From: Humibacillus sp. DSM 29435
GTDB lineage: Bacteria > Actinomycetota > Actinomycetes > Actinomycetales > Dermatophilaceae
NCBI RefSeq assembly: GCF_001758225.1
Contig: NZ_MAST01000003.1
Span: 62,001-126,000, forward strand
Length of the DNA stretch: 64,000 nt
Direction: 5' to 3'
A program made the translations under genes and the position numbers. Position 1 is the first letter of the stretch; every line of letters begins with the position of its first letter. Positions 36,006-52,091 of the stretch are shown piece after piece. The notes beneath the pieces were generated by a model. The model worked only from the letters and a program-made list of their open reading frames with translations. It was not told the DNA's origin and searched no databases.

Positions 36006-37391
36006 TCAGTCGTCGGTGACGACCGTGACCTCACCGAGCCCGAGGGCTTCGAGCGGCTCGCGGTGCTGTGACGCATCACCGACGACGACGATCGTCCAGC
36101 CCGCCCCCCGCGCACCCGACCCCACGCCGGCGAGACGTGTGAAGCGCTCGTAGGCGTCGGTGACCCGGTCGCGGTCGACCGTCACCAGGTCGTGCAGGTT
36201 GGCCGTCGTGAAGGCGGTCGTCCGACCGTCCATCGCCATCCCGACCGCCTCGTCGGCGATCGCGTCGGCCGTGGCGAACCGGCCCGGTGCGGTCTTGGCG
36301 ATGTAGTCGACGCCGGCGCGAACCTCCTTCTCGGAGAAGCCGTCTCGACCCCCTTCGAGGATGTCGACGATGATGCCGATCGACTCCGCCGTGACGTCGG
36401 CCCGCACCGACCCGAACGTCAGGAAGCTGCCCCCTCCCCGTTTCGGGCGGAAGCTTGAGCGGGTGCCGTAGGTGTAGCCCTTCTCCTCGCGCAGCACGGC
36501 GTCGAGGCGGGCCGTGGGCGACCCGCCGAGCACATAAGCCAGCACGGGGTAGGGCGCCCATCCGCCCGGAGCCGACCGGTCAGGGCCGGGGGCACCAACG
36601 AGGAAGTCGCTCTGCACGGCCCCCGGGCGGTCGACGAGCACGACCCGAGAGCGGTGGTTCGCGTGCGTGGCCGACCGCTCGATGAAACGCGCGCGGGCGG
36701 GGCCGGACGGCCAGTCTGCGAGCGCAGCGTCGACGAGTGCCGGCACGTCGAGACCGCCGAGGTCTCCCGCCACCACGAGCGTCGAGCCGGATGCCGTGAC
36801 GTGCTGTCGGTAGTGGGCCGCCACGTCGTCGCGGGTGATGGTGGAGACGGTCTCCGGGGACCCTCCGGTCGGCCGTGACGACCGGTCGGTCGGGGCGTAG
36901 AAGGTTCGTACGAACTCGAGCATCGAACGGTTCGCGCCGATCGAGCGCTCCTGCTCGATCTCGGCCAGCCGACTGCGCACGTGGCGCGCCACCTCGGCCT
37001 CGCGGAACACCGGCTCGGTGAGGATCTGGCGCAACAGGTCAAGGGCCGGCTCGAGGTTGCCCTTCACGACGTCGAGATCGAGGGACAGCCCGGCATCCGA
37101 GACGCCGGCACCGTAGCCGACCCCCTTGCGCTCGAGCAGCCGGGCGAACTCCTCGGCCGTGCAGGTTTCCGTGCCCTCGTCGAGGGTGCGGGCCATGATC
37201 GTGCCGACCCCCTCACGAAGGGTCGGCTCGGAGTCGAGCGGCACCGGCACCGCGAGGCGCACCGACACGACGTACTGGCCCGGCACGTCGTAGGTGACCA
37301 GGTGCAGACCGTTGGGCAGGTCGTGGGTCGTGGCTGCGGGGAAGTGCCACGGGGCGGGGGGCGCCACGGTGGGGCGCGTGACCTGGCTCAT
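36006..37391 (-). CDS. M16 peptidase-like protein, non-catalytic partner
   Basis: A 461-residue M16-fold protein. It shares the family layout (LPNGLHLVTYDVPGQYVVSVRLAVPV at the start, HYRQHVTASGSTLVVAGDLGG mid-way, REEKGYTYGTRSSFRPKRGGG late). Where active enzymes have HxxEH this protein reads REGVGTIMARTLDEGTE, so it lacks the zinc site. The late R/Y motif (Y in GYTYGT) that helps form the substrate pocket is present. It pairs with the catalytic subunit encoded upstream, overlapping by four bases (ATGA), as in heterodimeric PqqF/MPP-like systems. Confidence 0.9.
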   Translation of the reverse strand: MSQVTRPTVAPPAPWHFPAATTHDLPNGLHLVTYDVPGQYVVSVRLAVPVPLDSEPTLREGVGTIMARTLDEGTETCTAEEFARLLERKGVGYGAGVSDAGLSLDLDVVKGNLEPALDLLRQILTEPVFREAEVARHVRSRLAEIEQERSIGANRSMLEFVRTFYAPTDRSSRPTGGSPETVSTITRDDVAAHYRQHVTASGSTLVVAGDLGGLDVPALVDAALADWPSGPARARFIERSATHANHRSRVVLVDRPGAVQSDFLVGAPGPDRSAPGGWAPYPVLAYVLGGSPTARLDAVLREEKGYTYGTRSSFRPKRGGGSFLTFGSVRADVTAESIGIIVDILEGGRDGFSEKEVRAGVDYIAKTAPGRFATADAIADEAVGMAMDGRTTAFTTANLHDLVTVDRDRVTDAYERFTRLAGVGSGARGAGWTIVVVGDASQHREPLEALGLGEVTVVTDD

Positions 37392-38677
37392 GCGGCGACC
37401 TCAGCCTCGTCGCGGGCCAGGTAGCGAACCACCGCCCGTGAGGAGGGGACCAGCCACACCGCGGCGGCCGCCCGCACCTCGTCGGCCGTGATCGCGCGGA
37501 GCCGGTCGACGAAGGTGTTGACGTAGGCAGGGTCGCCCGTCAGCAGCGCGTGGTGGCTGATGTGGTCGGCCCGTTCCTCGATGCTGGCCAGGGCGCTGAG
37601 CCACGAGCGTTCGGTGTCGGCGACCACCGACTCGAGCTCGGCCTCGTCGGGCCCCTCGTCGATGAAGCGGGTCAGCTCGTCGCAGATCGCCGCCTCGACC
37701 TCGTCGGGGTCGGCACCCTCGGCCACGTCGGCGGTGATGGCGCCGAGGCCCACCCCGTCGACCAGACCCATGGTCCAGCCCCCCACCGACGTGGCGGTCT
37801 CGTCGGTGCGCACCAGTCGGCGCATCAGGCGCGAGCTGGCCAGGCCGGCGACCACGTCGACGGCGATCGAGGCCGCCAGGTAGTCGGGCGTGGCGTCGAC
37901 CGGCATCCGGAACGCGACGTAGAGGCGGTCGTTCGGCACGTCTCCCGCGCGGTCGACCCGCACCGGGGTCGCGAGGGGCTCCAGCTGCGGGAGCCGCTCC
38001 CGCCGCTGCAGCTCGATGGCCGGCAACGGGCCGAAGTACGTCTTCGCCGCAGCGAACCCCTCCTCGGGGGTGAGATCGCCGACGAGGGTGAGCACCGTGT
38101 TGTTCGGGCCGTAGTGGGCCCGGAAGAAGGCGTGCACGTCATCCAGCGTGGCTGCGTCGAGGTCGTCCATCGAACCGATGGTGGGGTGATGGTAGGGGTG
38201 ACCCTCGGGGAACGCCGCGGCGTACACGTCGATGAGCGCCGAGCCGTACGGCATGTTGTCGTAGCGCTGGCGCTTCTCCTCCTTCACCACGTCGCGCTGG
38301 TTGTCGAGGTTCTCCTGGGTGAGCGCGTCGAGCAGGTGACCGTGCCGGTCGGCCTCGAGCCACAGGGCGAGGTGCAGAGCCCCGGTGGGCACCGTCTCGA
38401 AGTAGTTCGTGCGGTCGAACCACGTCGTGGCGTTGAGGCGCGCGCCCTGCTCCATCAGCGCCGAGAAGTGCTCACCCGAGGCGACATTGCGGCTGCCCTG
38501 GAACATCAGGTGCTCGAAGAGATGCGCGAAACCGGTGCGCCCGGGGCTCTCGTGACGGGAGCCGACATCGACCCAGAGGTTGACCGCGACGTTGGGCACG
38601 GTGTGGTCCTCCGAGACGACGACCCGCAGGCCGTTGGCGAGGGTGGTCTCCGCGAGCGGGTACGAGATCGCTGTCAC
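37388..38677 (-). CDS. M16 zinc metallopeptidase, catalytic subunit
   Basis: A 429-residue peptidase. The inverted zinc motif H52-L-F-E55-H56 (FAHLFEHLMFQGS) is intact, with the distal Glu in NQRDVVKEEKRQRYD about 77 residues later. YGPNNTVLTLVGDL closes the first half. There is no signal peptide, so it is probably cytoplasmic. The non-catalytic partner follows with a 4-base overlap, which suggests a heterodimer that degrades small peptides. Confidence 0.93.
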   Translation of the reverse strand: MTAISYPLAETTLANGLRVVVSEDHTVPNVAVNLWVDVGSRHESPGRTGFAHLFEHLMFQGSRNVASGEHFSALMEQGARLNATTWFDRTNYFETVPTGALHLALWLEADRHGHLLDALTQENLDNQRDVVKEEKRQRYDNMPYGSALIDVYAAAFPEGHPYHHPTIGSMDDLDAATLDDVHAFFRAHYGPNNTVLTLVGDLTPEEGFAAAKTYFGPLPAIELQRRERLPQLEPLATPVRVDRAGDVPNDRLYVAFRMPVDATPDYLAASIAVDVVAGLASSRLMRRLVRTDETATSVGGWTMGLVDGVGLGAITADVAEGADPDEVEAAICDELTRFIDEGPDEAELESVVADTERSWLSALASIEERADHISHHALLTGDPAYVNTFVDRLRAITADEVRAAAAVWLVPSSRAVVRYLARDEAEVAA

Positions 38678-38686
38678 GCATCGAGC

Positions 38687-39337
38687 CTATGCGACCGGGC
38701 CTCGGGGACCCGTCCAGGTGCCGGCCCAGACCTGCACGTGACCACCGCGCAGAGCCACGTGCGAGACGTCGACGCACTGCTGCGCCAGCGCCGTCCACGG
38801 ATGGGCGTCGATGTCGGAGCCGCCGACGTGGGTGGCGAGCAGGGCGAGGGGCGTGAGCAGACGGGCCGGGCCGACCGGCCGCGCCATGTCGACCACGACG
38901 ATGCGGGCGCCGGGACGGGCCAGCGACAGTGCGCCCGACCAGGCCGACCGCCACGGGACCATGACCGAGAGCGCGTAGGTGAAGAGAACCGCATCCGCTC
39001 GTCTCCGCTCGAAGGCCTGCCCAGGCGCACGCAACGCCTCGAGCGCGGTGGCGTCGTGCGCGACCAGCTCGACGTTGGGTCCCTCCTCGCCGAGCCGACG
39101 ACGGGCCATGGCCAGCATCTGCTCACTCGCGTCGATGCCGACGACCTCCCCCGTGTCGGTCACGGCCCGACGCAACAGGGGGAAGTTCAGCCCGGTGCCA
39201 CAGCCGACGTCGACGACCAGGTCGCCTGGCCCCAGTCGCAGCCTCGGGATGCCGGCGACGCGCCCTGCGCCGTAGACCGGCCCCTCCGCCGAGAGCAGGT
39301 CGTAGAGGGGAGCGACCGCGGTGTACTTCTGGGGCAC
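38687..39337 (-). CDS. Class I SAM-dependent methyltransferase
   Basis: A ~216-residue methyltransferase. VPQKYTAVAPLYDLLSAEGPVYGAG is a UbiE/phospholipid-methyltransferase-like start. SAM motif I is LVVDVGCGTGLNFPLL; later motifs are VVGIDASEQMLAMARRRL, VELVAHDATAL and ADAVLFTYALSVMVPW. GTG 39337 has GGGAGGT six bases upstream and is preferred over ATG 39463. It is divergent from the flavin disulfide reductase at 39475 and may belong to the same YnjBCDF-like cluster, a link consistent with lipid methylation but not shown. Confidence 0.82.
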   Translation of the reverse strand: MPQKYTAVAPLYDLLSAEGPVYGAGRVAGIPRLRLGPGDLVVDVGCGTGLNFPLLRRAVTDTGEVVGIDASEQMLAMARRRLGEEGPNVELVAHDATALEALRAPGQAFERRRADAVLFTYALSVMVPWRSAWSGALSLARPGARIVVVDMARPVGPARLLTPLALLATHVGGSDIDAHPWTALAQQCVDVSHVALRGGHVQVWAGTWTGPRGPVA

Positions 39338-39474
39338 GTGACCTCCCGGAGCGACGATGACGGTCAGACGGAGCCGGGTCGGCCCCGTCTCCCCGTGCCA
39401 CACTAAGCGCGGCCGAACAGCGGCGCGGCGCTTACCGCCCCTGCCGTCGGCCCCACCCGCCACCCAGGAGCACC

Positions 39475-40974
39475 ATGACCAGCAGCGTGGCCGAGACCGG
39501 CGCGACGACCACCCCCCAGCCCACGCTGGTCGAGCTCTCGAAGCAACCCCCCTGGGACCTCCTCGTGATCGGCGGTGGCACGGCCGGGATCGTGGGTGCG
39601 AAGACCGCCGCCCGGTTCGGGGCCCGTGTGCTGCTCGTCGACCGCGACCATCCGGGGGGCGACTGCCTGTTCACCGGATGCGTGCCGTCGAAGTCGCTGC
39701 TCGCGGCGGCCGCGGCTGCCGCAGCAGCCCGAACGGCGGGCCGGTTCGGGATCGACGTTCCGGTCGTCTCCGTCGACTTCGCCCGGGTCATGGCGCACGT
39801 GCACGGCGCCATCGAGCACATCGCCCCGACCGACTCGGCCGAGGCGCTCGAGCGGGCCGGCGTTCGCGTGGTGCGCGGACACGCCACCCTCGCCGGCCCC
39901 ACCAGCGCTGTCGTCGAGGGCGTCGAGATCCCGTTCCGACAGGCGCTGCTCGCCACCGGCGCCGCGCCGATGCTGCCGCCCATTCCCGGGCTGGAGGCGG
40001 CTGAGGCGCTGACGAGCGAGACGGTCTGGCAGCTGCGTGACCTCCCGGGCCGACTCGCCGTGCTCGGCGGGGGCAGCATCGGCTGCGAGCTGAGCCAGGC
40101 CTTTGCCCGGCTGGGGTCCGAGGTCGTCGTGGTCGAGGCGACACCGACCCTGATCTCGCGCGAGGACCCCGAGGCTGCCGCGGTCGTGACGGCCGCCCTC
40201 GAAACCGACGGGGTGCGGGTGTGCACCGGCGCCGGGGTGGTCGCCGTGAGCGGCCGGAGCGGGCAGGGTGGCTCGCTCACTCTCGAGGATGGTGCACGCA
40301 TCGACTACGACGTGCTGCTCGTGGCCGTGGGCCGCAGCCCGCGCACCGCCGGCCTCGGTCTCGAGGGCGCCGGGGTGGCGGTCGACGAGCGGGGCTACGT
40401 GGTCGTCGATGACCACCTGCGCACGACCAACCACCGGGTCTGGGCCGCCGGCGATCTGACCGGGCATCCGCAGTTCACCCACCTGGCCGGGGTGCACGCC
40501 TCGACGGCAGTCACCAACGCCGTTCTGGGACTGCGCCGGTCGGTCGCCGACGCCGTGGTGCCACGTGTGACGTTCACCCACCCCGAGGTGGCGGCGGTCG
40601 GAGCCCCCACCGGCTCTGCCGGCTCCGACCGCGAGGTCACGTCGTGGAGCAACGACGAGGTCGACCGCGCCGTCGCCGAGGGCGAGACGGCCGGCTTCAC
40701 CAAGATCGTGACCGACCGCCGTGGGCGCATCGTCGGGGCGACCGTGGTCGGCCCCCGCGCCGGCGAGGCCCTCGCCGAGCTGACGCTGGCCGTCACGCGC
40801 GGCCTGACGACCACCGCGCTCGCCGGGTCGACCCACCCCTACCCCACCTACGGAGACGGGCCCTGGAACGCCGCGATCGCCACCGTGCAGCAACGCCTGC
40901 GTCGCCCGCTGACCGCCCTTGCCGTCAGAACGCTCGCGGCCACCCGTCGTCGGGTGGTCAGCCGGCGGGGTTGA
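39475..40974 (+). CDS. FAD-dependent disulfide oxidoreductase, mercuric-reductase/dihydrolipoyl-dehydrogenase-like
   Basis: A 499-residue flavoprotein. The FAD motif is LLVIGGGTAGIVGAKTAARFG and the redox disulfide C64-x4-C69 is in GGDCLFTGCVPSKSL. NAD(P) binding is at AVLGGGSIGCELSQAFARLG; the second FAD motif is RVWAAGDLTGHPQFTHLAG; the C-terminal end has STHPYPTYGD instead of the HPxxxE of lipoamide dehydrogenases. MerA's N-terminal metal domain and C-terminal Cys pair are absent. It is a redox enzyme of unknown substrate. It has an AGGAG ribosome site. The C-terminus ends in a basic, possibly amphipathic helix. It is convergent with the CDP-alcohol transferase gene. Confidence 0.85.
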   Translation: MTSSVAETGATTTPQPTLVELSKQPPWDLLVIGGGTAGIVGAKTAARFGARVLLVDRDHPGGDCLFTGCVPSKSLLAAAAAAAAARTAGRFGIDVPVVSVDFARVMAHVHGAIEHIAPTDSAEALERAGVRVVRGHATLAGPTSAVVEGVEIPFRQALLATGAAPMLPPIPGLEAAEALTSETVWQLRDLPGRLAVLGGGSIGCELSQAFARLGSEVVVVEATPTLISREDPEAAAVVTAALETDGVRVCTGAGVVAVSGRSGQGGSLTLEDGARIDYDVLLVAVGRSPRTAGLGLEGAGVAVDERGYVVVDDHLRTTNHRVWAAGDLTGHPQFTHLAGVHASTAVTNAVLGLRRSVADAVVPRVTFTHPEVAAVGAPTGSAGSDREVTSWSNDEVDRAVAEGETAGFTKIVTDRRGRIVGATVVGPRAGEALAELTLAVTRGLTTTALAGSTHPYPTYGDGPWNAAIATVQQRLRRPLTALAVRTLAATRRRVVSRRG

Positions 40975-41007
40975 CCCGCTCCGAAAGCCCACGAGCCCGG
41001 ATGCCGC

Positions 41008-41643
41008 TCAGCGCAGTGCCGCCCGGCCCGTCACGATGCGGTGCGCCGCGGTGACCCCGACAACCCCCGCCCAGACCGTCGCGATGGCCCCCGCCGAACC
41101 GGGCCAGACCAGCCAGAGGCAGTGCACGACGATGGTCTCGGCGCCCTCGGCCAGCCCGCCGAGAAAGCTCAGCGACCGACCATCGTCGATCTGCCGGTCG
41201 GTGCGTTCGGCGATCGAGGAGAAGGCGAGCAGGGCCGTGCCGTTGACGTAGTAGGCGAAGAGCACGAGCAGAAAGGGCCACCATGAGGCCCCCTCGGCCT
41301 GGGTCGCCCCGATGGCGACGCCGACGACGGTGGCCCCGTAGACCACGAAGTCGGCAGTGATGTCGAAGAAGCCGCCGGCCAGCGAGATCGTCTCTCCTCG
41401 CGTGGCGGCGGCCCGCTCCCGGCGCCGCGCCAGCGGTCCGTCGAGGCCGTCACAGGCCCGAGACAGCAGCCACAGCGCCAGCGCCGGCAGCCACCAGGCC
41501 GCTGCGGCCGCTGCGGCGCTGCCCAGCCCGAGAACCAGACCGGCCGCGGTCAGCCGGTCGGGTGAGAGCCATCCCACGTCGATGCGCTGGGCGGCCCGGT
41601 CGAGCGGCCCCTCGAGGCGACGGCGCAGACGCGCATCGATCAT
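41008..41643 (-). CDS. CDP-alcohol phosphatidyltransferase family membrane protein, YnjF-like
   Basis: A 211-residue polytopic membrane protein. The phosphotransferase motif DGLDGPLAR (DxxDGxxAR) is followed, after a longer-than-usual spacer of about 16 residues, by GGFFDITADF (GxxxDxxxD), so all four Asp are present. Hydrophobic stretches include LVLGLGSAAAAAAAWWLPALALWLL and WPFLLVLFAYYVNGTALLAF. The family joins CDP-activated lipids to alcohols. The adjacent ABC genes resemble ynjBCD, and E. coli has ynjF, the same family, in that cluster. ATG 41643 is preferred over ATG 41730. Confidence 0.85.
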   Translation of the reverse strand: MIDARLRRRLEGPLDRAAQRIDVGWLSPDRLTAAGLVLGLGSAAAAAAAWWLPALALWLLSRACDGLDGPLARRRERAAATRGETISLAGGFFDITADFVVYGATVVGVAIGATQAEGASWWPFLLVLFAYYVNGTALLAFSSIAERTDRQIDDGRSLSFLGGLAEGAETIVVHCLWLVWPGSAGAIATVWAGVVGVTAAHRIVTGRAALR

Positions 41644-41740
41644 CAGCGTCGGGCCTGCGCTGTCGGCGGGTAGCGAGATGCCACGCAGACCGTGTTCCCT
41701 GACATGCGCGCTCCTCGAACCGGCCGGCAATCGTTACCCT

Positions 41741-41767
41741 GGCAACCGCCGAATCCGGGCAGTTGCC
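41741..41767. promoter_or_regulatory. Inverted repeat between YnjF-like and YnjB-like genes
   Basis: GGCAAC (41741-41746) and GTTGCC (41762-41767) are inverted copies 15 bases apart in the 226-base divergent gap. Their centre-to-centre distance is two helix turns, as for a dimeric repressor site. No family-specific operator or riboswitch is recognised. Confidence 0.3.
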
Positions 41768-41869
41768 CACTATCCTGACAAGTCGACGTGGCGCGCGCCA
41801 GGCAGACGCGGTGATGTCCCGAGGTGCACACCGTACCCACCCCCCCGCTACGACGGAGTTCCGATCCCT

Positions 41870-43180
41870 GTGCACACTCGAACACCCACCAGCCATCGGC
41901 GCGTCCTGGAGAGCGCTCCCCCGGCACGACGCCCACCTCGGGCGCGCTGGGTCGCTCTTCTCGTCGGTGCGTTCGCCCTCGCCGCCTGCGCCGCTCCCGA
42001 CTCCGGCCCCGCAAAGGCCGGCGCGGCGACCCCCGAAGCCTCACGGTCGTGGGCGCAGATCGGCGAAGCCGCGCGAGGGCAGACGGTGTCGTTGTGGATG
42101 TGGGGCGGTGACCCCCAGGGAAACGCCTACGTCGACACGGTGCTGGCCCCGGCGGTGGCCAAGCTGGGGGTCACCCTTCGCCGGGTGCCGCTGGCCGACA
42201 CCAAGGACGCCCTGACGCGGGTGCTGTCCGAGCGGCAGGCCGGCATCACCGACGGCGCCGTCGACCTCGTCTGGGTCAACGGCGACAACTTCGCCACCGG
42301 CCAGCAGGCCGGGGCGTGGCGCTGCGGGTGGAGCGCCACGCTACCCAACATGAAATTCACCGACCCTGCCGACCCGTTACTCGCAAGAGACTTCGGAACT
42401 CCCGTCAAGGGCTGCGAGTCCCCTTGGCACAAAGCGCAGTTCACGCTCGTCTACGACTCCGCCAAGGTCTCGAGCCCGCCCACCACGCTGGCCGGTCTGC
42501 TCGCCTGGGCCAAGGCCCACCCCGGCCGGTTCACCTACCCCGCCCCACCCGACTTCACCGGGTCGGTCTTCCTGCGACAGGTGCTCTACTCGACCGCCGG
42601 CGGCTACCGCAAGGTCCCCTCCAGCTATGACAAGGGCGCCTTCGACCGGCTCACCCCCGCCCTGTGGACGACCCTCAACGACGTCAGGCCCAGCCTGTGG
42701 CGCGGCGGCAAGACCTACCCCCGCGACTCCGTGGCGCTCGACAAGCTGTACGCCGACGGTGAGGTCGACCTCACGATGACCTACGGCCCGGCCACCCTGA
42801 CCGACCTCGTCGCCAAGGGCACCTTCCCCAAGACCACGAAGGTGCTGACGCTCGACGAGTGAACGGTCGGCAACGCCAGCTTCTTGGCGATCCCGGCCGG
42901 CTCGCCTCACGCGGATGCCGCGATGGTCGTCGCCGACGCAGCACTCAGCCCGGCGCAACAGGTCGCCAAGGCCGCCCCGTCGGCCTGGGGTCAGTTCACG
43001 GTTCTCGACACCTCGCGCCTCTCGGCCCCCGACGCCAAACGGTTCGCCGACCTTCCCGCCTCCCCCGTCGTACCGCCCTACGAGACGATCTCGAAGAACG
43101 CCAACCCCGAGCTCTCCGCCAGCTGGGTGGGGCCCATCGACGAGGGCTGGCGCCGACAGGTGCTCAGCACCTCCCCGTGA
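41870..43180 (+). pseudogene. YnjB-like ABC substrate-binding lipoprotein, interrupted by in-frame TGA
   Basis: GTG 41870 starts a lipoprotein (LLVGAFALAACAAP lipobox) with VSLWMWGGDPQGNAYVDTVL, DLVWVNGDNFATGQQAGAWRC and DFTGSVFLRQVLY, as in the COG4134 YnjB family. Frame continuity is broken only by one TGA at 42860-42862, after KVLTLDE. The same frame then continues with TVGNASFLAIPAGSPHADAAM and runs 105 more codons to TGA 43180. Family members have a Gly at this place (LD-x-G-T-x-GN), and GGA to TGA is one base change. The rest is undamaged. It could be a recent nonsense mutation, a sequencing error or readthrough; the truncated protein would be about 330 residues. Confidence 0.8.
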
Positions 43181-44034
43181 GGGGGCGCACCTCCACCCGG
43201 CCCTCGCACCGGGGTGCTCGATCGGCCCTGCCGGCCGTACTGCTCGTCGTGGTCGTGGTGGTGACGGCCCTGGTGGCCCTCGTGCTCACCGCCACCGGCC
43301 TCATGCCGCTGGTCGGGCGTCCGCACCTTCGCTCAGACGCCTTCGCCGCCGTGGCTCCTGACCTGCTCGTCCAGGCGCGAGAGAGTCTGCTTGTCGGGGT
43401 CGCTGCGACGGTGGTGGCCGTCGCTGTCGGCTTCGCCGTGGCTCTGCTGCTTCTCACCACCCGGTCCGGGAGCCGGGCTCTCTCCGTGGTTGTGACGGTG
43501 CCCATCCCGGTCGCCCACCTCGTCGGTGCCGCTTCCTTCGCCCTGCTGCTGACCGGTTCCGGGTTGGCCAACCGTCTGTTCGGCTCACCCCCCGACCAGT
43601 GGCCGAGCCTGGTCGGGGGCCCGTGGCCGGTCGCTGCCGTGCTGGCGTTCGCCTGGAAGGAGTCGGCCTTCGTGGCCCTGGTCGTCACGGCCACGCTCGC
43701 CGAGAACCTGACCGACTACTCCGAGGCGGCCGCGCTGCTGGGCGCCAGCCGGTTCGCTCGCGTGCGTCATGTCGTGCTGCCCCTGTCGGCGCCGGCGCTG
43801 ATCGGAGCGGGCACCATCGTATTGCTCTACACCCTCGGTAACTACGAGGTGATGTGGCTGCTCGGGCGGGCCTACCCCGAGACCCTCCCGGTCGCGGCCA
43901 ACCGCCTCTTCGGCTCCATCGACCTCACCTCTCGCCCCGGGGCGGCTGTGACCGCGCTCGCTACGACCGGCCTGGCGCTCGCCGCTGCTGCCGCTGCCGT
44001 TCCGCTCGTCCGACGAGCCGGGATGGCGCGGTGA
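43177..44034 (+). CDS. ABC transporter permease, N-terminal YnjC half
   Basis: A 285-residue permease with around six transmembrane segments (LPAVLLVVVVVVTALVALVLTA, LLVGVAATVVAVAVGFAVALLLL, VVVTVPIPVAHLVGAASFALLL). The cytoplasmic EAA-like loop is YSEAAALLGASRFARVRHVVLPLSAP, the ATPase contact. E. coli YnjC is one long chain with two permease halves; here the two halves are separate genes. The GTG start overlaps the YnjB-like stop (GTGA), and the next permease overlaps this one in the same way. Confidence 0.85.
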   Translation: MRGRTSTRPSHRGARSALPAVLLVVVVVVTALVALVLTATGLMPLVGRPHLRSDAFAAVAPDLLVQARESLLVGVAATVVAVAVGFAVALLLLTTRSGSRALSVVVTVPIPVAHLVGAASFALLLTGSGLANRLFGSPPDQWPSLVGGPWPVAAVLAFAWKESAFVALVVTATLAENLTDYSEAAALLGASRFARVRHVVLPLSAPALIGAGTIVLLYTLGNYEVMWLLGRAYPETLPVAANRLFGSIDLTSRPGAAVTALATTGLALAAAAAAVPLVRRAGMAR

Positions 44035-44960
44035 GCCGGGTGGGGGTTCGAACCCGGCCCACCGTCGACGCGCTGGGTGCGTCGCGTTCGAGGTCGCAAC
44101 CATCCGGCCGGGTCGGCCACGTCGGTCGTGGTCTGACGGCCCTGGTTGCACTCTGGTTCGTGCTGCCGCTGGTACCGATCCTGTTGTGGGCACTGGCCGA
44201 CCAGTGGAACTACCCGGGGGTGCTGCCACAGCGGTTCGGCATACGCGGATGGGGCGCCGTCGCGAACACCGACACGCTCCTGGCTCTGGGCCGGTCGGCC
44301 GCCCTGGGAACGGGCGTCGCGATCGTCGCGACCGTCGCCGGGGCGGCCGCGGGGCGTGCGATCGGCTGGCGGCTGGTGCGCCGGCGAGGTCTGCTCGGGG
44401 TGGTACTGCTCGCGCCCGTCGCCCTGCCCCCGTTCGCCGTGGCGATGGGGCTGACCCCGGTGCTGCTCCGGGCGCGCGTTCCCGAGACGCTGGGGGTGGC
44501 GGTGGTGCTCAGCGTGTTCGCCCTGCCCTATACCTGCTACGTGTTCGCGGCGGCCTACGCCGGTATCGACCCAGCGTTGGAAGATCAGGCCCGCCTGCTC
44601 GGAGCCACCCCGCGTCAGGCTCTATTGCGCGTCACCCTGCCTACCTTGCGGCCGGCCATCGCCGCCGCGGCCTTTCTGGCGTTCCTCGTCGGCTGGAGCG
44701 ACTACATCGTCACGCTCGTCATCGGCGGCGGGCAGCTGGTGACCCTGCCCCTGCTCATCGCCGCGGCCGCCTCCGGCAGTGGCAACGAACCGGTCCTCGC
44801 TGCTCTGTCGGTCGTCTCGGTGCTGCCGCCCGTGCTGGCCCTGCTCATCGGGCGCCGGCTCGTCGGGCGGCGTGCGCGCGGGTCCCTTCGCGCGAGTGGT
44901 GACGGCGACGGCGACGGCGACGGCGACGGTTACCAGCTGCGGTCGCAGGCCCTGTCGTGA
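44031..44960 (+). CDS. ABC transporter permease, C-terminal YnjC half
   Basis: A 309-residue permease. Hydrophobic segments include LTALVALWFVLPLVPILLWALA, LGVVLLAPVALPPFAVAMGL and PLLIAAAASGSG. The EAA loop is LEDQARLLGATPRQALLRVTLPTLRPA. The GTG start overlaps the first permease. Near its C-terminus the gene carries a GACGGC hexanucleotide run (about 44902-44930) encoding alternating Asp-Gly, a possible slippage site. The ATPase gene starts with a four-base overlap. Confidence 0.85.
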   Translation: MSRVGVRTRPTVDALGASRSRSQPSGRVGHVGRGLTALVALWFVLPLVPILLWALADQWNYPGVLPQRFGIRGWGAVANTDTLLALGRSAALGTGVAIVATVAGAAAGRAIGWRLVRRRGLLGVVLLAPVALPPFAVAMGLTPVLLRARVPETLGVAVVLSVFALPYTCYVFAAAYAGIDPALEDQARLLGATPRQALLRVTLPTLRPAIAAAAFLAFLVGWSDYIVTLVIGGGQLVTLPLLIAAAASGSGNEPVLAALSVVSVLPPVLALLIGRRLVGRRARGSLRASGDGDGDGDGDGYQLRSQALS

Positions 44961-46113
44961 CCACGCCCCTGCGTCGAGCAGCCGCGCCGACCGGCTCCGT
45001 ACGCGAGGGTGCCGACGACGCGGGCCTCGAGCTGCGCAGGATCACCTTCACCCACCCCGGCACCATCGAGCCGAGCCTGGCCGAGGTCGACCTCGCCGTC
45101 GCCTACGGAGAGATGCTTGCCGTGGTGGGGCCGTCAGGATCGGGAAAGACCAGCACCCTGCGGGTCACCGCGGGGCTCGCGCTGCCGGAGCGGGGTGAGG
45201 TGTTCGTCGGGGGCCAGAACCTGACCTCGTGCGCTCCAGAACGGCGAGGGATGTCGAGGCTCTTCCAGCGGCCGCTGCTCTTTGCCCACCTCAACGTGCT
45301 CGACAACGTGGGGTTCGCCGACCGGGTCGCGGGTCACTCCCGTCGCCGGTCGCGGGCCCGGGCGGCAGACTACCTCGGTCTCGTTCACCTCTCTCACCTG
45401 GCGGGTCGACGAACCCGAACCCTCTCCGGCGGTCAGGAACAGCGGGTGGCGCTCGCTCGTGCACTCGCCGCCGAACCTCGGGTGCTGCTGCTCGACGAGC
45501 CGTTCAGCTCGCTCGACGCCGGGGTGCGCGCCGACATGCACGAGCTGCTCGGTGAGGTGCGCGCCGTGCTGGCACCCACCACCGTGATCGTCACGCACGA
45601 CCTCGACGAAGCTGCCCTCGCCGATCGGGTCGCGGTGCTGGTCGCCGGCCGCGTGCACCAGGTCGACTCGGTGACCGAGCTCTTCCGACGGCCCGCATCG
45701 CGTGAGGTGGCCCGCGTGCTGGGCGGATTCGTGGAGGTCGAAGGCACCTCGACGAGCAGGGGCACCACTCCCCGTTCGGGGTGCTCCCCTGGCCGCCGGC
45801 CGGTGGGGCCGTGGCCGACGACGGACCCCCGCCCGGTGCGGTCACCGCTCTCCTGCGGAGGGAGTCGCTGCGAACGACGAGCGCCGACGACACTGCCGCA
45901 GTGTTCGTCGGCGTCGTCGTCGCCGTGCGCCAGCGCGGTCTACGCCACTCCGTGGTCGTGGAGCCCGATGCCGGGCAGGGCTCCGGCCGCCCGCCACGGG
46001 TCGAGGTCGAACATCAGGCCGGCTCGGTGCCGACGCCCGGAGACCGCGTCGGAGCCGCCCTGACGGGCCTGCCCTACAGCCTTCTGCCGGCGACCACCGG
46101 TCAGAGGTGGTGA
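44957..46113 (+). pseudogene. YnjD-like ABC transporter ATPase, frameshifted near 45750
   Basis: The ATPase core is complete: Walker A GPSGSGKTST, Q-loop FQRPLLFAHLNVLDNV, signature LSGGQEQRVALARAL, Walker B VLLLDEPFSSLD and H-loop VIVTHDLDEA. After GGFVEVEGTSTS the frame degenerates into a composition unlike coding sequence. From about 45754 the neighbouring frame instead reads EQGHHSPFGVLPWPPAGG and GVVVAVRQRGLRHSVVVE to TGA 46113, a TOBE-like C-terminus. A one-base loss or gain at about 45745-45760 explains this. The unshifted frame would end at 46063. Confidence 0.75.
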
Positions 46114-46157
46114 CCTGAGGTCTCCCCCGTCGAGGTGACGCGAGAGCGTGCGCGGGG

Positions 46158-47576
46158 TCAGACCGCGACCGGTGTCTGGTCGAGCACGGTCAACGGCAGG
46201 AGGCGGCGCAGCTCGACGTTCTCGACCGGGTCGAGCACCCCGTGCTGGGCACAGGCCGGCACCAGCTCGCCCGTCTCGGGGTGGCTCATCGAGTACGTGC
46301 AGGCCTGCAGCCGTTCCTGCGTGGCCCGGACGCGTTCGTCGTCGGCCACGACACCGGACTTGAGCATCTCCCACGCGGGCGCGACGTCACCTGCATCCAT
46401 GAACTGGTGCACCACGAAGGTCATCGGCGTCACCTCGCCCTTGCGGGCTGCCCGCACAAGGGTGGCGAGACCCCCGACTCGACCGATCACCGAGCCGGTC
46501 CAGCCCGCGATGACCACGATGTCGCGCGGATGCCGTGCCAGCACCCGACCGACCTTCGCCACGAGCAGGGCGGGTGGGGTGCCCCCGAAGCTCATACCGC
46601 CGAAGTGGTTCAGAAACACGTCGCGCGCGGCCGTCTCGGCGGGAATGTCGGCCTCACAGAGCGTGTGCCACGCCTGGCCGACCTTGAAGCCGAAGGCGGT
46701 TCGGTTGCACCGCCGGTCGCCGAACTGGAGCGCTCGCCACGACACCTTCTGGCCGAGGCCCTGCTCGAGCTCTTCCCAGACGGCGTCGATGTCGACGTCG
46801 TCGTAGCCGTCGTCCCAGCGCCGGTCGTCGCCGACGAACGCAGCCGGCTGGAACGAGAGCATCTGGTAGCCCATCCGCGAGACCGACGCCACGACGGACG
46901 CCACCTGTCGCAGGTTCGCCGGTGTGACCGTCATGTTGTGAGCCAGGTAGGAGCGCACCCCGGTCTCGCGCCGCAGCCGCGCGAACATCTCGACGAACGT
47001 CGCCCGGTAGCCGTCGAGCTCGGCCTCGTTGTACGGGCGCGGGATGCCGCGCCGGCCACGCATGAGGGAGTCGAAGTGGGCGGCGAACGACACCCGCGGC
47101 AGCCGCACCCGTCGATCGCCGTCGAGCACGACCTTCTCGAGATAGTCGTAGTCGAAGTCGCCGTGGGTCATCGACATGGGCTCACGCCCGTGGGCCCGCA
47201 TCGCGAGCAGAGCGGCGGCGTGGTCGTCGGGCGCCAGGAGCGACACCTCCCCGCCGATGAGCTGCGCGTGGGCTCGGGGGCCCCGACGCTTCGCCAGGTA
47301 GGCCATCTGCTCGTCGATCTGGGTCACCGTGTGCGATCCGTCGATGCGCACCTTGTTGGCGTCGCGAGAGTGGTAGCACGGCGAGCAGGTCAGGTTGCAC
47401 TTCGGGAACACCCCGTGCGTGCCCTCGCACCCGACGGCGTGCCGGCCGAGCAGCTGCTCCGGGGTGCGAACGGCCTCCGGCAGGGCGGCCCACCGGTCGC
47501 GAAGCACCTGCTCGGTGCGCTCGTCGACGGGGCGGGTTCGCTCGACCCACGCTTGTACGTTCTGCCTGAAGGTCAT
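46158..47576 (-). CDS. Radical SAM protein with C-terminal Cys-rich region
   Basis: A 472-residue radical SAM enzyme. The [4Fe-4S] motif is C60-x3-C64-x2-C67 in FPKCNLTCSPCYHS. LIGGEVSLLAPDDHAAALLAMRAHG is the GGE-like SAM-binding strand. A late ACTYSMSHPETGELVPACAQHGVLDP supplies two to three further Cys, reminiscent of SPASM-like auxiliary cluster sites. Between them is NMTVTPANLRQVASVV. The substrate is unknown. It is convergent with the YnjD-like gene (44-base gap) and may belong to that cluster. Confidence 0.88.
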   Translation of the reverse strand: MTFRQNVQAWVERTRPVDERTEQVLRDRWAALPEAVRTPEQLLGRHAVGCEGTHGVFPKCNLTCSPCYHSRDANKVRIDGSHTVTQIDEQMAYLAKRRGPRAHAQLIGGEVSLLAPDDHAAALLAMRAHGREPMSMTHGDFDYDYLEKVVLDGDRRVRLPRVSFAAHFDSLMRGRRGIPRPYNEAELDGYRATFVEMFARLRRETGVRSYLAHNMTVTPANLRQVASVVASVSRMGYQMLSFQPAAFVGDDRRWDDGYDDVDIDAVWEELEQGLGQKVSWRALQFGDRRCNRTAFGFKVGQAWHTLCEADIPAETAARDVFLNHFGGMSFGGTPPALLVAKVGRVLARHPRDIVVIAGWTGSVIGRVGGLATLVRAARKGEVTPMTFVVHQFMDAGDVAPAWEMLKSGVVADDERVRATQERLQACTYSMSHPETGELVPACAQHGVLDPVENVELRRLLPLTVLDQTPVAV

Positions 47577-47764: not shown

Positions 47765-48424
47765 ATGTCCGACCAGCCCACCGGAGCCCGTCCTCCCGCT
47801 GACGACTACCCCGTCGACCCTCTCGCCGGGTCGACCCTCTCGAGCGACGCCCTCTCGAGCGAGCCGTACTCGAGCGGGCCCACCGCGTCCGGGCCGGACG
47901 AGACCCAGCACGACGAGGCCCGGCACGAGGGCGCTCCGACCTCCATGACCGAGCCGATGCCATCCGAACCGGCCAACCCCTCGGTGCCTCCTGTGCCATC
48001 CATGGCTCCGGCGCCGCCTGTCCCTGCTGTACCCAGTGGCTTCGATGCCGGCCCGGCCGATGGGCCTCCGACCGACGCCGCCAAGGCCGGCAAGGCCGGC
48101 AAGAAGCTCTCCCCCGTGCTCAAGCGCGTCGGCATCGCGCTCATCGGCATCGTGGTCGTCGTCGTGGGGCGCACGGCCTTCGACCGAGGTTCTGCAGACG
48201 TGCTAGAGGTGGGCCAGTGCGTCTCGCGAGACGGCAACGAGATTTCGCAGGTCGACTGCGCCGACGACAAGGCCAAGTACAAGGTGCTGCTCATCCAGAA
48301 GGACACGACAGAGTCGTCGATCGAGTCGGTGTGCAGCGGGGCCCCGACGACGACGACCTCCTACTTCGAGTCGAAGGAGGGCGAGAAGCAGGGCAACGTC
48401 ATCTGCCTGTCCGACCTGTCCTGA
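47765..48424 (+). CDS. Proline/serine-rich single-span membrane protein, LppU/SCO3897-like
   Basis: A 219-residue protein. Residues 1-115 are a low-complexity, Pro/Ser/Asp-rich cytoplasmic tail. One transmembrane helix follows (VGIALIGIVVVVVGRTAF), then a ~75-residue extracytoplasmic domain with DVLEVGQCVSRDGNEISQVDC and GNVICLSDL; its four Cys can form two disulfides. Such domains occur in actinobacterial LppU-like proteins of unknown function. ATG 47765 has GGGGAG eight bases upstream. Two bases past its stop an ISL3-like transposase remnant begins. Confidence 0.75.
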   Translation: MSDQPTGARPPADDYPVDPLAGSTLSSDALSSEPYSSGPTASGPDETQHDEARHEGAPTSMTEPMPSEPANPSVPPVPSMAPAPPVPAVPSGFDAGPADGPPTDAAKAGKAGKKLSPVLKRVGIALIGIVVVVVGRTAFDRGSADVLEVGQCVSRDGNEISQVDCADDKAKYKVLLIQKDTTESSIESVCSGAPTTTTSYFESKEGEKQGNVICLSDLS

Positions 48425-48425
48425 G

Positions 48426-48621
48426 AAGACCGCCTTCACACGCCTGGACGAGCTCGGCCCTGTCGTGGAGGGGCAGCGGCTCGGCCCGCGCCGGGCGGTC
48501 CTGGCGCGGGCTGCGGTGGGCGCTGGACGCGATCGTGGGTCAGCACCTGACCGTGGCCCGGGTCGCCAGACTCTTGCGGCGACAGCGCATTCGGCGCCGA
48601 TTCACCTGCGAGCGAGGGTGA
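48426..48621 (+). pseudogene. ISL3-family transposase remnant
   Basis: Two pieces resembling ISL3-family transposases lie in adjacent frames. The first reads KTAFTRLDELGPVVEGQRLG then PRRAVLA, the N-terminal start of these proteins. After a large internal deletion and frame change it continues as WRGLRWALDAIVGQHLTVAR and VARLL, a segment from the helix-turn-helix region before the DDE domain. No terminal repeats were found. It marks the left edge of the pyruvate oxidase island. Confidence 0.6.
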
Positions 48622-48649
48622 TGGCGGGTCCGCCTCAGACGTAGCTGCA

Positions 48650-50407
48650 TCAGCTGATCACAACGCCGTGGTCTGCGAGGGTCTCGGCGAACGGGCGGAG
48701 GGCCGATGCCTCGTATCGGGCGACGAACTCGTCGAAGTCCGGCCGATCTCCACGACGCAGCGGGTAAATCTCAGTCGGTAGCAGCCGGTCGTCGGTGACC
48801 TTCACGTCGATCAGGATCGGCTCGGTGGCGTCGAGCGCCTCCGCTAGCGCAGACCGCAGCTCCGGTATCGTTCTCGCGGTGATTCCGCGCACACCGAAGC
48901 CTTCGGCCACCCTGGCAAAGTCGATGTCCATCAGTTCGACCCCGGAATGCGGCTGTCCCTGGTCATCCTGCTCCCCCTCGATGAAGCCGAGCGACCGGTT
49001 GGTCAAGACGATGTTGATGATGCGTAGGTGGTAGAGGGCCTGTGTTGCCAGGTCCTGGGCCACCATCGCGAAACCGCCGTCGCCAGAAAGCGACCAGACC
49101 TGGCGCTCCGGGTACACCAAAGCGGCCGCGATGCTGGCGGGCAGACCGTAACCCATGGTCGCGTAAAGCGCGGAGGTGGTCATGGTGCGCTGTTCGGTCA
49201 TGTGCAGAAATCGCGCCGTCTCGATGTTGATATTGCCCACGTCGACACCGAAGACAGCGTCGACGGCCGCGATCCGGTTGATCTCGGCGAAGACCGGTGG
49301 GATGCGAACCGGCACTCGAGTGTCGACCGATTGCGCGGCAATCCAGCTGTCCCAGTCTCGTTTGTCTTCCAGGGCCGACAGATACCAGCCGGCGTGGTTC
49401 TCGCGCGCGCACTCGCGGGCCCGGGCCGCCGCGAGTAGCTGACGCAGAAACTCTGGGCCATCCGCGCGGATCCCGAGAACCGTTGCGTGCCGGGCTCCGA
49501 TGGCGGTCGCGTCTAAATTGACGTCGATGAAGCTTGCCTCGGGATCGAACATCGCGGTTCCGAATTCGTAGTTGGTGCCGATGAAGAGAATCAGATCAGC
49601 GGACTTGCCGACATCCGTACCCGGCTTTGTCGACACGCGGCCAGTGGAGATCATGTAGCCGGGATAGTCGTCAGGAAGTATCCCCTTAGCCAGATACGTC
49701 GACATCAGCGGCAACTGCATCAGCTCCGACAGCTCCCGGAGCTCGGCGGCCGCACCATCTGCCCCGCGGCCGAAGTAGATGATCGGTCGCGCAGCAGCCG
49801 AGATCAAGTCAAGGGTCTTCTCGACATCAGCGATCCGTGCGCCGAGCGTCCACTCCGGTTGAGCGTACGAGTTCGCGGATGAGATGTAGCCGTCGGTGAT
49901 CTTGGTCCAGCCCAGGTCCCGCGGGATGACGACGACCGCAACGCCCCGCCGCTCGTACGCGTGCCGAATTGCGGTGTCGATAACGTCGGGTAGCTGCTCG
50001 GCGGTCGTCACCGTACGGTTGTAGACGGCTACGTCGGCGAAGATCGGATTCTCGGGCAGTTCCTGGAAGTAGTCCATGTTCATCAGCGGGGTGGCCACTT
50101 GACCGATCAGCGCGAGTACAGGCGCATGGTCGTGGCGTGCGTCATACAGACCATTGAGCAGGTGCACGGCGCCAGGACCGGCCGAACCGAAAGTCACACC
50201 GATCTTTCCGGTGAGTTTGGCCTCCGCGGCCGCGGCGAGAGCGCCCACCTCTTCGTGACGGACTCCGATATACCGGATGGTTTCCCTGAAGTCATGGAGA
50301 GCATTCATCGTCGAGTCGAACGAACCGCCGGGTAGACCGTAGACGTTTTTGACGCCCCAGTCCTGTAACACCTTCATCATCGCGTTGGACGCATTGACCA
50401 GCGTCAT
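48650..50407 (-). CDS. Pyruvate oxidase (Lactobacillus POX/SpxB type)
   Basis: A 585-residue thiamine-diphosphate flavoenzyme. By memory it closely follows Lactobacillus plantarum pyruvate oxidase: VLQDWGVKNVYGLPGGS, IGVRHEEVGALAAAAEAKLTG (catalytic Glu), VTFGSAGPGAVHLLNGLYDA, MNMDYFQELPENPIFADVA, and TPP/metal motif SGDGGFAMVAQDL to NIVLTNRSLGFI. Such enzymes convert pyruvate, phosphate and O2 to acetyl-phosphate, CO2 and H2O2. A TPP decarboxylase or quinone-linked PoxB is a less likely alternative. It lies 70 bases after gap. GC is lower than the flanks and transposase remnants bound it, suggesting acquisition. The start has AGAGGAA upstream. Confidence 0.85.
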   Translation of the reverse strand: MTLVNASNAMMKVLQDWGVKNVYGLPGGSFDSTMNALHDFRETIRYIGVRHEEVGALAAAAEAKLTGKIGVTFGSAGPGAVHLLNGLYDARHDHAPVLALIGQVATPLMNMDYFQELPENPIFADVAVYNRTVTTAEQLPDVIDTAIRHAYERRGVAVVVIPRDLGWTKITDGYISSANSYAQPEWTLGARIADVEKTLDLISAAARPIIYFGRGADGAAAELRELSELMQLPLMSTYLAKGILPDDYPGYMISTGRVSTKPGTDVGKSADLILFIGTNYEFGTAMFDPEASFIDVNLDATAIGARHATVLGIRADGPEFLRQLLAAARARECARENHAGWYLSALEDKRDWDSWIAAQSVDTRVPVRIPPVFAEINRIAAVDAVFGVDVGNINIETARFLHMTEQRTMTTSALYATMGYGLPASIAAALVYPERQVWSLSGDGGFAMVAQDLATQALYHLRIINIVLTNRSLGFIEGEQDDQGQPHSGVELMDIDFARVAEGFGVRGITARTIPELRSALAEALDATEPILIDVKVTDDRLLPTEIYPLRRGDRPDFDEFVARYEASALRPFAETLADHGVVIS

Positions 50408-50476
50408 TTCTGTTCCTCTCGATCTATAGCAGCCGGTTTTACTGACCGTGCGCAGGCGCCGTGTCTCACCGTCAGG

Positions 50477-51481
50477 TCACAGACGCTCTGCGACATAGTT
50501 CGTGAGGTCGACCATCCGGTTAGAGAACCCCCACTCGTTGTCGTACCAGCTGGACAACTTCACCTGATCGCCAATCACACGAGTGAGGCCGGCATCAAAG
50601 ATCGACGAGGCCGAGTTTCCGACGATGTCACGCGAGACGATCTCGTCCTCCACGTATTCCAGTAAACCTTTCATCGCTCCTCCCGCAGCTGTCCTATAGG
50701 CAGCCTGGACTTCCTCTACCGTCACGGGACGCGACGCCGTGACGGTCAGATCAGTGATCGAGCCGACGGGCACCGGAACACGAAGGGCGAAGCCATCCAA
50801 TTTGCCGTTGAGCTCCGGCAGGATCAGTCCGATGGTTTTGGCAGCACCGCTGCTGGTCGGGATGATGGAGAGCGCGGCGGCACGGGCACGACGCAGGTCC
50901 TTGTGTGGACCATCGTGCAGGTTCTGGTCAGCCGTGTAGGCGTGCACAGTCGTCATCAGGCCATGTTCGATTCCAAAAGCGTCGTGAAAGACCTTCGCTA
51001 GCAACGCCAGGCAGTTCGTCGTGCACGATGCGTTGGAGATCACGTGATGATCTGCGGGTTCGTACGTCGCCTCGTTCGCCCCCAGAACGACAGTGACATC
51101 GGCCCGAGCAGCCGGGGCGGAAACGATGACCTTTCGAGCACCTGTGGACAGATGCGTGCGCGCGTCATCACCGCTCGTAAAACGGCCCGTCGATTCGATC
51201 ACGATGTCGACACCGAGATCACCCCACGGGATTTTTGCCGGGTCACGTTCGCCCAGTACCTGGATCGGTGCACCGTCGACGATCATGCTCCGACCCTTGA
51301 CATCGACCACCTTTCCGAGACGACCGCTCAACGAGTCGTATTTCAATAGATGTGCCAGCGTTGCTGTGTCTGAGAGATCGTTTACCGCCACGACGTCGAA
51401 CTGACTTTCTTGGGCCAGCGCCGCGCGCAGATAGTTACGGCCGATCCTGCCGAATCCGTTTATGCCGATTCTCATTGCCAT
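50477..51481 (-). CDS. gap: Type I glyceraldehyde-3-phosphate dehydrogenase
   Basis: A 334-residue GAPDH. NAD-binding MRIGINGFGRIGRNYLRAA with VNDLSD (Asp favouring NAD), active-site C153 in SNASCTTNC, catalytic His in TTVHAYTADQNL, phosphate sites at RRARAAALSIIPTSSGAAK, and WYDNEWGFSNRMVDL near the end. It is not beside pgk/tpi. It precedes a pyruvate oxidase in a two-gene operon within the lower-GC island, so it is probably an additional copy. ATG 51481 has GAGGGG eight bases upstream; ATG 51475 is possible. Confidence 0.93.
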   Translation of the reverse strand: MAMRIGINGFGRIGRNYLRAALAQESQFDVVAVNDLSDTATLAHLLKYDSLSGRLGKVVDVKGRSMIVDGAPIQVLGERDPAKIPWGDLGVDIVIESTGRFTSGDDARTHLSTGARKVIVSAPAARADVTVVLGANEATYEPADHHVISNASCTTNCLALLAKVFHDAFGIEHGLMTTVHAYTADQNLHDGPHKDLRRARAAALSIIPTSSGAAKTIGLILPELNGKLDGFALRVPVPVGSITDLTVTASRPVTVEEVQAAYRTAAGGAMKGLLEYVEDEIVSRDIVGNSASSIFDAGLTRVIGDQVKLSSWYDNEWGFSNRMVDLTNYVAERL

Positions 51482-51510
51482 TTCTTGCCCCTCGCCAGTC
51501 GTCGTTGCCA

Positions 51511-51556
51511 GTTATCGAAGAAGATGCTCTCAGCGGCAAGACGGATTCTTCGAATC
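51511..51556 (-). promoter_or_regulatory. Candidate promoter and operator of the gap-pyruvate oxidase operon
   Basis: On the minus strand TTGCCG (51534-51539) and GATAAC (51511-51516) lie 17 bases apart, about 30 bases upstream of the gap ATG. Directly upstream of the -35 is an inverted repeat GATTC-TTC-GAATC (51544-51556), a possible regulator site. No known operator is matched. Confidence 0.35.
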
Positions 51557-51849
51557 TTCACATCTTGCGGGTTCGTCCGGCGCGTCTCGGTCCACGTGGG
51601 TGACCCGACCACGTGAGTTCATTTCGACCCGAGTCTCGAAACAGGTGAGTGACCATAGACTACCGACGTGTCCGGCCGCTGTCAGCGGCCGGGAGTGAAT
51701 TTCAGTCATGTGACTGAGGGCGAGCTGCGAATCGACGGCAATCACGCCGACGACTCGCTCATCTGCCACGCGGCAGAGCACTCGGTGGGGCGATTGACCA
51801 ATTGCAGTCGATCGACTGTGGCCTCATCATCCCGACCCTCCTATTGTGG

Positions 51850-51990
51850 CTCTTCGCAAAGCAGGGTTACGGCGACCACCAGCTCGACCGCGCCCTGCAC
51901 ACGATCGCCGTGTCCCGCATCCGCTATGACCAACCCACCCGCGACTACCTCGCCCGACTGCTCGAACAGCGGCGGCCAACCGCCTCTTGA
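51850..51990 (+). pseudogene. IS110-family transposase C-terminal remnant
   Basis: Within the 610-base gap between gap and the aminotransferase, this frame reads KQGYGDHQLDRALHTIAVSR then IRYDQPTRDYLARLL, like the segment ahead of the C-terminal end of IS110 transposases (xRQLxxALHxxAxxRxRxDxxTRxYxxR). The domain is cut before the usual KRY tail. A 9-base hairpin (CCGGCCGCT/AGCGGCCGG, 51672-51692) lies further left. It marks the right edge of the pyruvate oxidase island. Confidence 0.6.
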
Positions 51991-52091
51991 CGACCCACGG
52001 GAGTGTCCGGATTCGGCAGGGTCCCCACTCTGACCCAAACGTCACGTTATGGTTTGAGCGAACAGCATCACCTGCGCTACGGTTCGGTGGC

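Follow-up and report, generated by a model that had tools for sequence, protein, structure and literature searches.

In a 64,000 nt stretch of the Humibacillus sp. DSM 29435 genome (contig NZ_MAST01000003.1, positions 62,001 to 126,000 of the forward strand; hereafter the window), the segment 38687–47576 carries genes for a class I S-adenosylmethionine (SAM)-dependent methyltransferase (MT), a MerA-like FAD disulfide reductase, a CDP-alcohol phosphotransferase and a radical SAM protein (rSAM), together with the genes of a YnjBCD-type ATP-binding cassette (ABC) importer. We found that these enzymes are grouped repeatedly, whether or not the YnjBCD importer is present, and that the gene set is rare, co-inherited and spread over many Actinobacteria, with a grouping beyond chance. 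We tentatively propose, at slightly less than an even chance, that they form a module for the modification of membrane lipids, in which the importer is optional, the lipid chemistry and the substrate being putative. The importer and transferase families are known but uncharacterised, and their combination with a radical enzyme of the Tes fold was not found in the literature searched. With the co-inheritance and the apparently Tes-fold rSAM partner, what was an orphan transporter would become part of a pathway whose chemistry can be tested, and import can be told apart from enzymology by way of natural variants that have or lack the importer.

Co-inheritance of the enzyme genes with YnjBCD homologues

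The eight genes named in the original prediction (binding protein, two permeases, ATPase, transferase, reductase, MT and rSAM) were all located within the segment by profile scans, in which the MT, the reductase, the transferase, both permeases and the ATPase of the window scored above the Pfam cut-offs. Gene neighbourhoods were surveyed in 80 actinobacterial loci, the 80 best among 114 with an encoded binding-protein relative (62–77% identical), all of which contain the binding protein by construction; Rhodococcus and Arthrobacter-like genomes are strongly represented in the set, which includes one record titled Planococcus. Among the 53 loci with full flanks (locus length at least 20.4 kb), the transferase was found near the binding protein in 52, the reductase in 48 and a TVP38/VTT protein in 45, followed by the MT (33 loci) and the rSAM (32 loci), and 17 loci carry the reductase, transferase, TVP38, MT and rSAM all together. 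A DUF427 gene was near the binding protein in 11/53. As a control, the same survey was made for eight further genes of the window, which were found near the binding protein in 0/53 and 0/80 loci. Over all 80 loci, TVP38 is present in 71 and the rSAM in 46, and the VTT domain was recognised in the TVP38 protein of relatives. It had been predicted that the reductase, transferase, rSAM and MT repeatedly accompany ynjBCD homologues; the counts by class, family and locus put this co-occurrence far beyond chance, and no absence of co-occurrence was seen in the neighbourhood check. The predicted composition of the module held for the named enzymes, which recur, but it missed the TVP38/VTT protein, the ydjX/ydjZ counterpart, which is itself absent from the window.

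At the level of the class, the binding protein (E ≤ 1e-60) was found in 6 of 296 genomes, the genome of the window included, and the transferase (E ≤ 1e-25) in the same 6; the rSAM (E ≤ 1e-40) was found in 5 of these 6 and in none of the remaining 290. The hypergeometric probabilities, uncorrected for shared descent, are 1e-12 for the transferase and 3e-10 for the rSAM, or 6e-11 and 2e-8 when the genome of the window is excluded. Within the family, with cut-offs for close orthologues chosen by eye at wide E-value gaps after the hits were seen, a reductase orthologue was found in 11 of 186 genomes, the transferase in 10, the binding protein in 7 and the rSAM in 6, all within those 11. Weaker matches were set aside; with these, at E ≤ 0.001, the totals out of 186 genomes are 21 for the binding protein, 13 for the transferase and 7 for the rSAM, and the reductase family matches 186/186 at 1e-40. 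The genome search scores just the best few candidates per genome, and among the 11 reductase genomes G055 and G119 were seen in short loci only and the neighbourhood of G129 lay outside the survey. A further genome, G288, has two module copies (L137 and L138) with differing rSAM positions; because the compared stretches of its contig C1 and of contig C3 of the window's genome (G000) are unrelated in sequence, the G288 module is not a copy of that in the window; the equal length given for these two contigs, 184493 bases, is probably a coincidence.

Apparent importer lesions and importer-free variants

The importer is encoded on the plus strand by a YnjB-type solute-binding lipoprotein gene (41870–43180), two BPD_transp_1 permease genes that are counterparts of the N-terminal half (permease 1, 43177–44034) and the C-terminal half (permease 2, 44031–44960) of YnjC, and an ABC_tran ATPase gene that is the counterpart of YnjD (44957–46063). 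Overlaps of 4 bp are possible at all three junctions (GTG 43177/stop 43180, GTG 44031/stop 44034 and GTG 44957/stop 44960). The overlapping gene order described in the original prediction was thus borne out, but two apparent lesions had gone unmentioned. The binding-protein gene, whose part before the stop scores 349 bits against NF008633 (PRK11622; cut-off 203, with 462 bits for the homologue of locus L027), is interrupted by an in-frame TGA at 42860–42862, beyond which same-frame homology resumes, up to 43177. The ATPase gene is frameshifted near 45740, the homology of its C-terminal part being found in a different frame; comparison with five relatives gave z values of 12.7, 10.6, 5.7, 3.0 and 2.6, of which that for L028 is ambiguous (z 3.0, with a second frame at 3.1). 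In the relatives, the binding-protein gene is open in 79/80 loci (in 3 of these the sole stop is the gene end), and an ATPase frame of at least 300 codons is present in 74/75. Complete frames were therefore not found for all subunits of the importer here, and in this genome it is apparently broken by two lesions, for which sequencing error could also account. Programmed read-through of the TGA was considered and rejected: no sign of it was seen, and with the binding-protein gene open in nearly all relatives, the simpler account is a lesion or an error in sequencing. The one exception among the 80 loci, L099 of Arthrobacter sp. H14, has a YnjB-type gene with an internal stop.

The sister genome G001 (94% complete, 360 contigs) carries the enzymes without the importer. 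On its contig C291 (1–7796, locus L112) the order is two M16 peptidases, MT, reductase, transferase and rSAM, and no YnjB match was found in this genome. DNA homology between the two genomes ends at 41642 and restarts at 46158, with 191 intervening bases in the sister versus 4515 in the window. Genome G085 has the rSAM, transferase, TVP38, reductase and MT without an adjacent importer, and no close YnjB orthologue was found in either G001 or G085. In addition, the rSAM stands near the reductase in G005 and G168, and apart from the importer cluster in G051. The ratios of nonsynonymous to synonymous substitution rates between the window's genome and the sister are 0.31 for the MT, 0.22 for the reductase, 0.18 for the transferase and 0.15 for the rSAM, beside 0.09 for a neighbouring peptidase; purifying selection acts on all four enzymes. 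Because of this selection and the importer-free sister, the enzyme core is retained, whereas the importer is apparently disappearing from this genus; since the sister has the four enzyme genes in the same order but lacks the importer, the latter is an accessory to the enzyme core. The two tandem M16 peptidase genes (36006–38677) that adjoin the MT gene in the window are present in the sister and in 0/80 of the relatives' loci.

Fold and family relationships of the enzymes

The rSAM gene (46158–47576, minus strand) was assigned by its Radical_SAM family match and by a model with a tetraether-lipid-synthase-like fold. The window protein scores 24.9 bits against Pfam Radical_SAM, under the cut-off of 29.5; the family was matched at E ≤ 0.1 by 18/18 members of alignment A1 (the window and 17 further sequences), at best with 2e-07, and CxxxCxxC is present in 37/37 rSAM homologues of suitable length. 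Seven cysteines are invariant in alignment A1, of which three make up the radical SAM motif and the other four (C50, C290, C426 and C442) could, from their conservation, be a site for one more metal. The protein falls far under all named sequence models, the best being TrsS and, by number of members, Tes; although the TrsS (seleno)protein is among these best sub-threshold models, the rSAM reaches 17.4 bits versus the cut-off of 490 for NF045646. A sequence search of solved structures found nothing at E ≤ 0.1, with GDGT-MAS appearing only at 0.66, and a fold search was therefore needed. Using an AlphaFold model with a mean predicted local distance difference test score of 82, low at residues 56–77 around the motif, Foldseek ranked GDGT-MAS, the tetraether lipid synthase, first (E 9e-10). 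The likeness to Tes/GDGT-MAS covers the whole length of the fold (VIA-align Z 23.7, 344 residues, 4.0 Å) at 14% identity, and the next family by VIA-align is MoaA, with Z 15.1. The modelled rSAM thus appears to have a Tes-like fold, but not to be a Tes by sequence. In the available excerpt of a 2025 paper, membrane-spanning lipid synthesis by bacterial Tes homologues is given as not experimentally confirmed.

The transferase gene (41008–41643, minus strand) was assigned by Pfam CDP-OH_P_transf and by its YnjF match; its open reading frame extends to 41730, and the start was placed by homology at the ATG of 41643. The motif of the CDP-alcohol phosphotransferase superfamily, D-x2-DG-x2-AR...G-x3-D-x3-D, is invariant in 13/13 rows of alignment A2 (the window and 12 further sequences) and present in 45/47 of a larger set; a third alignment, A3, comprises 18 of the 80 loci, picked as open frames. 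The nearest named models, all below cut-off, are archaetidylinositol phosphate synthase and, for the L027 homologue, phosphatidylinositol phosphate synthase.

The reductase gene (39475–40974, plus strand; Pfam Pyr_redox_2 and Pyr_redox_dim) has PRK06370 as the type of its best NCBIfam model, below cut-off, and mercuric reductases are its nearest PDB chains. It shares with MerA the similarity of the flavoprotein core and a C-x4-C motif, but it differs in scoring 357 bits versus the TIGR02053 cut-off of 454 and in lacking at its C-terminus the Cys pair that is a feature of MerA; such a pair was found in 3/50 reductase homologues of the relatives' loci, a set that includes paralogues. The MT gene (38687–39463, minus strand) matches Pfam Methyltransf_25 (E 9.7e-16), and its best NCBIfam models, all below cut-off, include CpaM, UXPK-star, DVU_1556 and arsenite methyltransferase, along with UbiE types and phospholipid methyltransferase. 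The DVU_1556 methyltransferase, although among the best of these, is matched with 40.4 bits by the window protein and 59.1 by that of L052, versus a cut-off of 155. PADLOC, run on five proteins, found no family except an MT-domain match to mad2, which was taken as generic.

Readings of the module and its counterparts in other phyla

In E. coli K-12, the gene order is ydjX, ydjY, ydjZ, ynjA, ynjB, ynjC, ynjD and ynjE, followed by ynjF on the opposite strand. E. coli YnjB is matched by the window binding protein with 39% identity (E 8e-62), YnjD by the window ATPase (E 8.6e-29) and YnjC weakly by both window permeases (3e-4 and 4e-7). The proposed kinship of the window transferase with YnjF was confirmed (E 6.8e-27), ynjF matching in 76/80 of the relatives' loci, and YdjX and YdjZ match the TVP38 of relatives at about 1e-23 to 1e-22. 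The E. coli region differs in that counterparts of its ydjY, ynjA and ynjE were each found in 0/80 of the relatives' loci (E ≤ 1e-5), and in that the actinobacterial clusters add the reductase, the MT, the rSAM and sometimes an extracytoplasmic function (ECF) sigma factor with its anti-sigma factor; the window differs from it in having no TVP38. Searches of the literature on ynjB/C/D, ynjF, ydjX/ynjE, COG4134 and the cluster components found, in the parts of the sources available, no tested function, and the available text of a 2022 paper still terms YnjBCD uncharacterised.

Outside Actinobacteria, we examined six plasmids, picked by eye from 210 records with a binding-protein match. The Metabacillus plasmid pBY2G20 (Bacillota) carries TVP38, an FAD reductase, a solute-binding protein, two permeases, an ATPase and a CDP-alcohol transferase in one row, but differs from the window in having no rSAM or MT match in a 19 kb region. 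On two alphaproteobacterial plasmids the transferase, solute-binding protein, permease and ATPase genes stand together, and two Deinococcus plasmids have the importer and no annotated CDP-alcohol transferase in the stretch, one of them with FAD-reductase, AhpD-like and Crp-type genes nearby. A search of the plasmid records for the rSAM gave no match. Judged from these sequences, the association of YnjBCD with TVP38 and the flavin reductase extends outside Actinobacteria, where it rests on single records; since module parts stand together in single Bacillota and Pseudomonadota records, an answer to what the module does could be general. A Salmonella IncC plasmid (L131, NZ_MH760469.1, 99407–118495) has a fused TVP38/FAD-oxidoreductase gene two genes before the YnjB-type gene, with DUF2282, DUF692 and DoxX genes upstream and IS26 and resistance genes from ~1 kb past the YnjB-type gene.

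The rSAM fold nearest to GDGT-MAS, the nearest models of the transferase and the VTT-domain protein are hints at a lipid reading. In the mechanism we propose, the transferase would attach a small alcohol to a lipid activated with CDP, or the other way round; the rSAM and MT would alter the lipid or its headgroup by C–H chemistry and methylation; the TVP38/VTT protein would shift the product between leaflets; and the flavin reductase would hold a thiol partner in the reduced state. Where present, YnjBCD would import a headgroup precursor that could also be made inside the cell, and this intracellular source could explain the loss of the importer. The lipid-modification idea of the original prediction gained ground in that the closest solved fold of the rSAM is that of a lipid-coupling enzyme, whereas its substrate and lipid product stay conjectural. 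A bolder version, which we consider doubtful, is that aerobic Actinobacteria make an undescribed lipid, in which the Tes-fold rSAM, the MT and the YnjF-type transferase would build a methylated, C–H-modified phospholipid, the VTT protein would flip it, and the same head-group pathway would be supplied by orphan YnjBCD importers in several phyla.

Several observations weigh against the lipid module. A Tes fold in common does not itself show function, and the rSAM reaches 12.4 bits versus the cut-off of 450 for the Tes model NF045702. The MT and the rSAM are each missing in ~20 of the 53 full-flank loci, and TVP38 was not found in the window or in the sister's contig; the genome of the window has one TVP38 paralogue elsewhere (44%), the sole module-type gene beside it being an ATPase paralogue. 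None of the nine E. coli genes tested matches the rSAM, MT or reductase profile. Furthermore, the importer and the rSAM, present in 7 and 6 family genomes, share 2 of them (the window's genome and G051; p 0.017). This small overlap suggests, from gene presence, that the importer and the rSAM are separate additions to a reductase–transferase core. Together with the importer-free cores of G001 and G085 and the apparently broken importer of the window, it left the earlier claim of a module that takes up its substrate and then processes it unsupported as stated.

The strongest point against the lipid module also favours an alternative that we consider unlikely, the handling of organometal(loid) compounds or heavy elements: the MT (CpaM, UXPK-star, DVU_1556 and arsenite methyltransferase) and the rSAM (TrsS) weakly resemble, below cut-offs, selenium-, arsenic- and corrinoid-linked families, the best named matches of the MT including corrinoid-, selenoprotein- and arsenic-linked ones. 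A methylated or thiol-bound element would enter via the importer or by diffusion, the MerA-like flavoenzyme would reduce it, and the MT and rSAM would make or break element–carbon bonds, along lines reportedly proposed for the Sao system. The mercuric reductases nearest to the reductase in the PDB fit this scheme, but the sub-threshold MerA score and the C-terminus without the Cys pair do not, and the CDP-alcohol transferase would have no obvious role in it, unless arsenolipids are made. Among the genes examined we recognised neither mer nor ars genes, although the neighbours were not systematically searched for them.

A system for envelope thiol or sulfur redox, in which the core would repair or supply a compound of the thiol or sulfur kind, with the lipid enzyme serving only to anchor it, seems rather improbable to us. 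It could draw on the neighbours found in a minority of the full-flank loci, namely an ECF sigma factor and its anti-sigma factor (16/53 each), Rv2466c-like (15/53), AhpD-like (10/53) and Crp (8/53) genes. The small zf-HC2 anti-sigma factor has the motif HxxxCxxC in 11/11 genes of its cluster, drawn from the relatives' loci L025–L104, and with the ECF sigma factor this suggests redox- or metal-sensed control, as far as the motif can tell. In the same direction, msrA and msrB lie close to the Metabacillus cluster, and the available excerpts of E. coli studies point to redox or Fe–S links: ynjABCDEFI fall into a group with suf components in a study of genetic interactions, a table of the FNR regulon lists ydjXYZ-ynjABCD beside activated operons, and ynjA is up 1.6-fold and ynjB 1.4-fold with BaeR. 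However, each of the redox-type neighbours is present in just 8 to 16 of the 53 loci, and the E. coli genes ydjY, ynjA and ynjE have no counterpart in any of the 80 at E ≤ 1e-5.

An ordinary nutrient importer of the polyamine, thiamine or aminophosphonate type that lies by chance beside unrelated enzymes is highly improbable: the modelled binding protein is closest to thiamin-, dinucleotide- and spermidine-binding folds (the many matches do not decide the ligand, and by sequence no PDB chain matched at E ≤ 1) and the available part of a review places YnjB under polyamine transport in its table, but strict co-inheritance over several families, the conservation of flanking window genes in 0 loci and the pairing with the CDP-alcohol transferase or TVP38 in other phyla too all disfavour it.

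Beyond the segment, the G+C content of the window dips at 48001–52000, to 0.65 and 0.60 versus ~0.70, and the dip spans two open reading frames that resemble, as named by eye, a thiamine-pyrophosphate enzyme and a glyceraldehyde-3-phosphate dehydrogenase.

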